From NCBI RefSeq assembly GCF_029953595.1, contig NZ_CP124535.1, positions 3,207,001 through 3,271,000 of the forward strand: a DNA stretch of 64,000 bases. The letters run 5' to 3'. The notes below the pieces were generated by a model, which worked only from the letters and a program-made list of their open reading frames with translations, searched no databases and was not told the origin of the DNA. The DNA is from Fuscovulum ytuae. GTDB taxonomy: Bacteria; Pseudomonadota; Alphaproteobacteria; Rhodobacterales; Rhodobacteraceae. Positions 48,308-49,851 of the stretch are shown piece after piece. Each line of letters starts with the position of its first letter. Position 1 is the first letter of the stretch. The translations under genes and the position numbers were made by a program.

Positions 48308-48721
48308 ATGCTGCAACCGAAACGGACCAAGTTCCGCAAACAGCACAAGGGCCGCATCCATGGCGAAGCCAAGGGTGGTTTCCTGCTGAACTTCGGCTCT
48401 TATGCGCTGAAGGCCACGGAACCCGAGCGTGTGACGGCCCGCCAGATCGAAGCGGCCCGCCGCGCGATCACCCGTCACATGAAGCGTCAGGGCCGCGTCT
48501 GGATCCGGATTTTCCCGGACCTGCCGGTCTCGGCAAAGCCGATCGAAGTGCGTATGGGTAAGGGTAAGGGCTCGGTCGACCGTTGGGTCGCCAAGGTCAA
48601 GCCCGGCCGTATCATGTTCGAGATCGACGGCGTGAACGACACGATCGCCCGCGAAGCGCTGCGCCTTGGCGCGATGAAGCTGCCGGTCACCACCCGCGTC
48701 GTGGCGCGCGAGGACTGGTAA
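48308..48721 (+). CDS. rplP: 50S ribosomal protein L16 (uL16)
   Basis: This 137-residue protein ([16 protein letters not shown]) binds near the A-site tRNA elbow. The loop [15 protein letters not shown] is conserved, with Arg82 matching E. coli Arg81, the residue hydroxylated by the 2OG oxygenase YcfD. A palindrome and an intrinsic terminator follow, then a 2OG oxygenase gene. Confidence 0.98.
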
Positions 48722-48749
48722 GGGCGGCGGGGTGAAACCCCGCCCTACC
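48721..48749. repeat. GGGCGGGG palindrome after rplP
   Basis: The left arm AGGGCGGCGGGGT and the right arm ACCCCGCCCTACC pair with a small bulge around GAA. The right arm read backwards is GGTAGGGCGGGGT, the core shared with other palindromes in the window. Confidence 0.5.
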
Positions 48750-48755
48750 GATATC

Positions 48756-48792
48756 GGCCCCCGATGCGCGAGTGTCGGGGGCCTTTTTCTTT
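48756..48792 (+). terminator. intrinsic terminator after rplP
   Basis: The perfect 9-bp stem GGCCCCCGA / TCGGGGGCC with a 10-nt loop is followed by TTTTTCTTTT. It cuts the S10 cluster between L16 and the oxygenase gene. Confidence 0.9.
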
Positions 48793-48865
48793 TGTGACAC
48801 CGACCCCCTCCCCGACCCTCGCCCATAGGTGGGGGAGGTGGAGATCACCCGATGGAGCCTGACCG

Positions 48866-49489
48866 ATGACCGAGATCACGCCGCTGTTCGTGACCCATCT
48901 TTACCGCGCTGAATTGAACAGCCTTGCCAAGAAGAAGGTGGATTACGCCGAGTTGCACGCAACCTGCGATGCGGTGGCCGAGGATGACGAGGCCGGGCAG
49001 GAATGGTGCGAGGCGAATGGTTATCCGGGCTATACCTCCTACGCCTCGCTGGACGATCTGCCGTGGCGGATGCCGATCTTTGGCGATCTGGAAAAGGCGC
49101 TGGACAAGCATGTTGCGGCTTTTTGCGCCGCTCTGGGGTTCGATCTTGGTGACAAGAAGCTGAAATGCAATTCGCTGTGGATCAACATCCTGCCGGAAGG
49201 CGGAACGCATGCGAGCCACATTCATCCGCATTCGGTGATTTCCGGAACGACCTATGTGGCGATGCCGGAAGGGACGAGTGCGCTGAAGCTGGAAGACCCG
49301 CGGCTGCCGATGATGATGATGGCGCCGCTGGTCAAGAAAGAGGCGTCGCAGGCGCTGCAACGCTTTGTCTATGTGAAGCCGAAGGTGGGTGAGGTGCTCT
49401 TGTGGGAAAGCTGGCTGCGCCACGAGGTGCCGATGAACATGGCGGAGGATGAGCGTATCAGCGTCAGCTTCAACTATGGTTGGGCGTGA
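48866..49489 (+). CDS. 2-oxoglutarate/Fe(II) oxygenase-like protein (TIGR02466-type) inside the S10 cluster
   Basis: This 207-residue protein looks like the 2OG-FeII_Oxy_5/TIGR02466 family. A jelly-roll core has the iron region HASHIHPHSVISGTTYVAMPEG (H118, H120, H122), a mid-barrel EDPR, the distal ligand in LLWESWLRHEVPMN (H186) and the 2-oxoglutarate-binding Arg197 in RISVSFNYGW. The expected reaction is O2- and 2OG-dependent hydroxylation; the substrate is unknown. It replaces the usual direct rplP-rpmC junction, lies 144 nt after rplP behind a terminator and 161 nt before rpmC, and so probably has its own control. E. coli YcfD, which hydroxylates L16, is a different, cupin-type 2OG family. 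A ribosomal-protein substrate is inference from position only. Confidence 0.78.
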   Translation: MTEITPLFVTHLYRAELNSLAKKKVDYAELHATCDAVAEDDEAGQEWCEANGYPGYTSYASLDDLPWRMPIFGDLEKALDKHVAAFCAALGFDLGDKKLKCNSLWINILPEGGTHASHIHPHSVISGTTYVAMPEGTSALKLEDPRLPMMMMAPLVKKEASQALQRFVYVKPKVGEVLLWESWLRHEVPMNMAEDERISVSFNYGWA

Positions 49490-49650
49490 GGGGCAACTAA
49501 GTGCTTGCCCTTCGGACATCGCTTCTGTAATGGGACGCATCCTGCGGTTCCGGGGCGACTCGGAATCGTTGGTTTATCATTGATCCACCGGGTTCAGGGT
49601 TACCCTTCCGCGTAAGGGGCTCTCTGGTGATTGAGAAAAGGACAAAGGCC

Positions 49651-49851
49651 GTGAAAGCCGACGAACTGCGGGGCAAGACCCCTGACCAGCTGCGCGACAG
49701 CCTGGTTTCGCTGAAGAAGGAAGCCTTCAATCTGCGCTTCCAGCAGGCCACCGGCCAGCTTGAGAACACCGCCCGCATGAACGCCATCCGCAAGGATGTG
49801 GCGCGCATCAAGACGGTGCTGAACCAAAAAGCCGCTGAAGCTGCGAAATAA
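49651..49851 (+). CDS. rpmC: 50S ribosomal protein L29 (uL29)
   Basis: This 66-residue protein is [30 protein letters not shown] in its N-terminal half. The GTG at 49651 gives the usual length with AAGGAC upstream; a GTG eight codons earlier is possible but adds a non-family extension. Confidence 0.95.

Follow-up and report, generated by a model that had tools for sequence, protein, structure and literature searches.

The gene that lies between rplP and rpmC in the S10 ribosomal protein cluster of Fuscovulum ytuae encodes a protein of the TIGR02466/PF13759 family, with a conserved set of three histidines and one arginine, a modelled fold of the PHD/P4H class, and a location that persists across the window's family (Rhodobacteraceae). 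The window is the whole stretch of DNA that was analysed, 64,000 nucleotides in length. Our preferred reading, held tentatively and at somewhat less than even confidence, is that the product is an iron oxygenase of the PHD fold with a three-histidine site, likely acting on a protein or peptide substrate that is not specifically ribosomal, and that its gene was captured once in a permissive gap of the S10 cluster. To our knowledge, E. coli has no gene between rplP and rpmC. The relevant features, in window coordinates, are as follows.

48308–48721, + strand: rplP, ribosomal protein L16, the upstream neighbour (TIGR01164, 192.6 bits)
48756–48783, + strand: intrinsic-terminator-like hairpin 3' of rplP, 12 pairs plus a T-run (hairpin scan)
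48866–49489, + strand: oxygenase-like protein of TIGR02466/PF13759, 207 aa (ORF and profile scores)
49217–49225, + strand: HxH codons, His118-Ile119-His120, predicted metal ligands (His120 at the canonical Asp/Glu place)
49421–49423, + strand: His186 codon, predicted third metal ligand (H in all but one of 329 ungapped rows)
49454–49456, + strand: Arg197 codon, predicted anchor for 2-oxoglutarate or another carboxylate (R in 323 of 329 ungapped rows)
49544–49569, + strand: weak terminator-like hairpin 3' of the oxygenase gene (poor T-tail)
49627–49851, + strand: rpmC, ribosomal protein L29, the downstream neighbour (TIGR00012, 74.9 bits)

Family membership and the predicted metal site

The 207-residue protein predicted between rplP and rpmC was confirmed as an open reading frame (48866–49489, +). 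It scored 267.2 bits against TIGR02466 (cut-off 62.5), with residues 7–206 aligned to positions 3–200 of the 201-position model, and 123.1 bits against PF13759 (2OG-FeII_Oxy_5; cut-off 27), and was itself the single TIGR02466-type match in the window's genome. This is an uncharacterised family with two solved structures, PDB entries 3bvc and 2rg4, both of which matched the protein at E about 1e-92 and 68–69% identity, with an HIHPHS stretch common to all. No function of any member was found in the open-licence papers searched (PMC10598087, PMC9964418 and PMC10436341 included), nor was an HxH triad found to be named for the family there. The closest record, from Tabrizicola sp. TH137 (locus L038), was 100% identical. 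Ka/Ks values of 0.066–0.150 across 11 pairs (Ks 0.79–1.26, near saturation) indicate that the gene is under purifying selection and is maintained. At one metagenome locus (L058:3001-3621) the frame held a single stop codon, possibly decay or a sequencing error. A full-length homologue, 63% identical, was seen at the end of an IMG/VR contig (L233:3001-3615), where it adjoins an integrase-like ORF and is probably the host flank of a provirus.

The original prediction had described a 2OG-oxygenase histidine cluster at residues 118, 120 and 122, followed by His186 and Arg197. His118, His120, His186 and Arg197 were placed correctly and are invariant in a 34-row alignment, but His122 is not conserved, being His in only 145 of 339 distinct rows, 9 of which are gapped there. 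The conserved set of the family is H118-x-H120...H186...R197. These counts come from a motif census in which 411 loci gave 339 distinct aligned segments (9 gapped at the motif columns), drawn from Pseudomonadota, from viral contigs and from two phages (the window's family having more than its share), and recruited with the family profile at E 1e-4, a threshold at which remoter HxD proteins would fall outside. HxH was present in all 330 distinct rows aligned at the motif; of the 321 rows that were complete, 315 had all four residues, H-H-H-R. The canonical 2OG-oxygenase metal motif is HxD/E...H, according to PMC4295552, and the assignment of the protein to that motif failed, given the uniform HxH. 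When compared by hhalign with HxD-bearing PF13640 proteins, H118 paired with His and H120 with Asp (probability 25%, E 7.7e-4), a register for H120 that comes from one comparison, weak by itself, and is otherwise supported by fold similarity only. Asp144 was considered as a hidden carboxylate ligand and is unlikely to be one, as it is D in 176 of 182 cellular rows, whereas many viral rows have E, N, H or K there.

In 2OG oxygenases, the Arg or Lys for the 2OG carboxylate lies about 10 residues after the last histidine, and Arg197, kept in 323 of 329 ungapped rows, agrees with this. The standard 2OG-oxygenase label is nevertheless uncertain, because the metal motif is HxH, not HxD/E. In a human P4H the equivalent Asp-to-His change (D414H, giving HxH) left no hydroxylase activity, according to PMC2767507, which also describes a three-histidine site in cysteine dioxygenase, an enzyme that does not use 2OG. 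The inactivity of the engineered HxH enzyme counts against ordinary 2OG hydroxylation by such a site, and therefore suggests either a working natural three-histidine centre or chemistry other than canonical 2OG hydroxylation. Judged from the aligned sequences, the family may be built round a native three-histidine centre that has a chemistry of its own.

One form this could take is a 2OG-independent dioxygenase of the PHD fold, which would act much as thiol or diketone dioxygenases do, on a carboxylate-bearing substrate held by Arg197. The invariant HxH...H set would suit such an enzyme, as would the precedents just cited, namely a three-histidine cysteine dioxygenase that dispenses with 2OG and a three-histidine P4H that is inactive. 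The retention of Arg197 in 323 of 329 ungapped rows, at the position by which 2OG oxygenases bind their cosubstrate, speaks against it, as does a fold closest to 2OG enzymes, and this reading is considered improbable. Under the preferred reading, the product would be a mononuclear non-haem iron oxygenase with a double-stranded beta-helix of the PHD/P4H type and a predicted metal site at H118/H120/H186, and Arg197 would anchor a carboxylate group, probably from 2-oxoglutarate. Should the HxH triad prove to be the metal site, the protein would be a natural counter-example to the carboxylate-ligand rule for P4H-type hydroxylases, the engineered three-histidine P4H being inactive (PMC2767507); a three-histidine site, if true, would also open a reaction type in a family spanning alphaproteobacteria and phages.

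Fold of the modelled protein

The AlphaFold2 model (pLDDT 84.3, pTM 0.82) gave 1596 Foldseek matches. Among the best 50 of these, the first two were the protein's own relatives (2rg4/3bvc) and most of the others were PHD2, a share that is inflated because PHD2 is over-represented in the PDB. The best match beyond the protein's own family was an uncharacterised Burkholderia oxygenase, and the same best 50 of 1596 also included a Dictyostelium PHD, a Trichoplax PHD and the P4H of Pseudomonas putida, entries for the last including a complex with EF-Tu (4iw3; E 1.7e-5, TM 0.53). Also among them were PolD and TlxI, the substrates of which are small molecules. A double-stranded beta-helix is indicated by matches to PHD2, P4H and others at E about 1e-5, the TM-scores beyond the protein's own relatives being only 0.4–0.6 (best 50 of 1596). 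Among characterised enzymes, the modelled fold most resembles the PHD/P4H prolyl hydroxylases, rather than YcfD, and there was no YcfD or JmjC entry among the best 50 of the 1596 matches. A profile search of the PDB returned the family's own two entries only, plus sulerythrin noise in the N-terminal half.

Location, descent and candidate substrates

The rplP–oxygenase–rpmC order anticipated by the original prediction was strongly borne out within the window's family. In a set of best-match loci, in which close relatives are over-represented and a few genomes may appear twice, the oxygenase gene lay between those for L16 and L29 in all 76 loci that held the three genes, in the ribosomal direction in 61 and inverted in 15. 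Also examined were 120 genomes sampled evenly across the family, of which 73 passed the TIGR02466 cut-off, 65 carried a strong copy (at least 165 bits), and 107 had a detectable L16. In 56 of the 65 strong-copy genomes the gene and L16 shared a contig and were no more than 20 kb apart, the gene being on the downstream side of L16 in 55 of these 56 and usually 0.1–3 kb away; six more (G045, G080, G082, G108, G118, G119) had it beside the L29 block, so that it was near L16 or beside the L29 block in 62 of 65. The three exceptions were G089, where L16 and L29 are side by side and the oxygenase is elsewhere, G056, where S10 genes were absent from the 8.6 kb read around the oxygenase, and G102, which has only a paralogue, 31% identical. 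A displacement of the gene from L16 in G080 and G082 was discounted, since the contig carrying L16 ends 0.3–0.9 kb after it and a break of the assembly within the gap accounts for the separate contigs. A strong copy was lacking in 44 of the 107 genomes with L16, some of which have weaker, distant TIGR02466 matches. In G064, a short oxygenase match (L179:4024-4212, 78.6 bits) was observed about 2.8 kb downstream of L16, and may reflect decay, divergence or a contig break.

The gap itself varies. Where it could be measured in genomes without a strong copy (38 of 44), it was 26–291 bp in 30 and 480–6305 bp in 8, and in one congener (G104) a 2.5-kb gap holds an RTX-like protein and no oxygenase. 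Other ORF clusters in the gap (ORFs of at least 70 aa, spurious antisense ORFs included) each occurred in at most 7 of the 76 loci; on this count a companion gene was rejected. Because gap sizes and contents vary, the spot between rplP and rpmC is regarded as a site of insertion and loss.

Several further observations concern this joint, which is a hotspot in the window's family, with variable inserts, a gap of about 20 kb (G086) and a moved or turned L2–L16 block (G009, G034, G045). In G086 the oxygenase sits inside this L16–L29 separation, on the L29 side. In G009 the turned L2–L16 block comes after the oxygenase; G034 has the L29 block in the middle, with the oxygenase on one side of it and an L16 block of opposite direction on the other; and in G045 L16 is 206 kb off on the same contig, the oxygenase still being beside L29 with L23 as its other neighbour. 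RTX-like repeat proteins were seen in the gap at several loci (L038, L191:5366-6871, L056, L116, L025, L027): in L191 without the oxygenase, and in L038 together with an oxygenase identical to that of the window, the gap of which has no RTX-like ORF. Between rplP and the oxygenase gene, a short GC-rich stretch of the window (48801–48851) has 83–89% matches elsewhere in the genome (four of five off-site places) and, to judge by these, is a dispersed intergenic repeat.

The gene had also been proposed to form a terminator-bounded unit. This stood on the 5' side, where a 12-pair hairpin is followed by a T-run (48756–48783), but the 3' side is weak (49544–49569, tail TGGTTTATCA), and the region as a whole gave 3 terminator-like hits against 1.7 in shuffles. 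Of 73 loci with the gene, 34 had such a hairpin within 150 bp after L16, as did 13 of 43 loci without it, where shuffles lead one to expect 0.6 and 0.8, so a terminator after L16 is common, though far from universal. Regulation apart from the ribosomal genes, as had been suggested, is plausible to the extent that separate transcription is possible, with a terminator after rplP and inversion in 15 of 76 loci; the same inversions argue against operon coupling.

Outside the window's family the picture is different. The TIGR02466 cut-off was passed in 69 of 289 alphaproteobacterial genomes sampled, and relatives turned up in 193 of 50,697 phage records, almost all of them from cyanophages. The flanks of the 20 strongest out-of-family copies were inspected (13 alphaproteobacterial families, about 6 kb per side except for a single flank of 4.1 kb), and none of the 20 had S10-cluster genes nearby, eight ribosomal proteins having been tested. 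Relatives lying away from ribosomal genes, which the original prediction had named as evidence against itself, are thus what was found at these 20 loci, and among all loci examined it is only in the window's family that the gene's context is tied to ribosomal genes. No orthologous neighbour was common to different families among the 20, neighbours being partly common within f5 and within f63. An aminotransferase neighbour at 6 of 20 loci (f5, f63, f93) was set aside, the cross-family proteins being paralogues at 25–30% identity. In two f63 loci the homologue has EttA, an ABC-F protein associated with the ribosome, no more than 6 kb away: L210:3666-5330 (NCBIfam EttA, 925 bits) and L212:11103-12585 (assigned by its near-identical start); as a general link it was dropped, the other cluster members being different ABC ATPases at 26–47% identity, and the f63 case stands.

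In a tree of 93 copies, the ribosomal-locus label required 5 changes, compared with 25.6 for shuffled labels, and short flanks account for at least two of the 'non' labels within the clade (L013, for which the longer L216 reaches L29, and L122, for which G141 is ordered L16–oxygenase–L29). Copies from f67 and f116 were nested in the clade and grouped with that of G089, none of them at S10 genes. The tree agrees with a single capture, after which the position was lost in places, and with a transfer between the window's family and f67/f116, the direction of which is inferred. Oxygenase and ribosomal-protein distances were correlated across 61 loci (r = 0.79, matched in 0 of 1000 permutations), which points to vertical descent. 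The persistent location looks like one ancient capture followed by vertical descent, not operon partnership, and the position of the gene is best explained by descent. The preferred scenario would comprise a single capture between rplP and rpmC, early in the window's alphaproteobacterial family, at a permissive joint, where a terminator-like hairpin follows rplP in about half of gene-bearing loci; the oxygenase gene would then have been kept at that place by vertical descent, amid a turnover of other inserted genes. The locus shows that a ribosomal protein cluster can gain a permissive gap holding foreign genes, and warns against inferring function from position alone.

A gene sitting by chance in such a gap could also encode an oxygenase of small molecules, acting on a metabolite, cofactor or natural product. 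That the gap is a site of turnover, that PolD and TlxI are among the fold matches, that phage relatives are many (193 of 50,697 records), and that the 20 out-of-family loci have no cross-family orthologous neighbour would all be in keeping with this. It is rated as rather unlikely, since after the family's own two entries most of the best 50 of 1596 matches are protein prolyl hydroxylases, and no pathway partner recurs beside the gene across families. Under the preferred reading, the most likely hydroxylated target would be a residue in a protein or peptide, not specifically ribosomal.

The original prediction had named as possible substrates L16, the hydroxylation of which at Arg81 is the role of YcfD/RoxA, or another ribosomal protein such as L29, S17 or L14. 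The loop in question (VRMGKGKG, with Arg82) is intact in the upstream rplP, and the protein is not of the YcfD type, as had been said: PF08007 (JmjC_2) was absent from its Pfam matches up to E 1, and had no match in the window's whole genome. The loop VRMG(K/S)GKG was alike in gene-bearing (78 of 90, two further rows being unaligned there) and gene-lacking (42 of 43) rows inspected, so the proposed link to L16 hydroxylation found no support in a loop that is the same with or without the oxygenase. Of the 120 genomes, 2 had a PF08007 score above the cut-off (G011, which carries the oxygenase, and G084, which does not), and this co-occurrence does not indicate replacement of ycfD; YcfD-type proteins are nearly absent either way, and replacement was rejected. 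Because the loop is alike and PF08007 rare, the gene is not an obvious stand-in for YcfD, nor does its presence go with a change in L16. Co-variation of L16, L29, S17 and L14 residues with gene presence gave several significant cases, with kinship ignored, and no credible target.

A hydroxylase of the ribosome or of a translation factor, modifying L16, L29, S17, L14 or EF-Tu, with a place in the S10 cluster that reflects its role, is accordingly given little probability. It would account for a location kept in 62 of 65 genomes, and for a gene that stays on the L29 side in G045, with L16 206 kb away, and in G009, G034 and G086; a P4H solved with EF-Tu (4iw3) is among the fold matches, and EttA is within 6 kb in two f63 loci. 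It is at odds with the absence of S10 genes at all 20 homologue loci in 13 other families, which leaves a ribosomal substrate in general (L16, L29, S17 or L14) unsupported, and with the inverted gene in 15 of 76 loci, the 44 of 107 L16-detected genomes that lack a strong copy, the like L16 loop in rows inspected with and without the gene, and the nested f67, f116 and G089 copies away from S10 genes, in the last of which L16 and L29 remain adjacent. A ribosomal substrate, the less likely part, would if true add a further case of oxygen-linked ribosome modification. Lower still do we rate a combined reading, in which TIGR02466/PF13759 would be a PHD-fold, three-histidine iron family of bacteria and phages, perhaps 2OG-dependent through its Arg, and the enzyme captured in the S10 cluster would act on the translation apparatus.

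Comparison with known systems

The closest of the known proteins are 3bvc and 2rg4, which belong to the same family as the window's oxygenase over its full length; among the loci examined, members other than those of the window's family do not share its S10-cluster location. YcfD/RoxA (PF08007, JmjC_2) is also a double-stranded beta-helix oxygenase, and its target loop is present in the L16 encoded next to the gene, but a protein of 207 aa is too short to contain the dimerisation and winged-helix domains of the YcfD type as well (domains described in PMC4295552). Three-histidine non-haem dioxygenases, such as cysteine dioxygenase, resemble it in their three histidine metal ligands, which for the oxygenase are predicted; they differ in that its best 50 of 1596 fold matches are of the 2OG superfamily and that Arg197 is kept. 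With the PHD/P4H enzymes (PHD2/EGLN1, and the P. putida P4H, 4iw3 and 4j25), the likeness is one of fold and of the His...His...Arg arrangement, at 10–16% identity and TM 0.4–0.6, and the distinguishing feature is the second ligand, which is Asp in those enzymes and His in this one.
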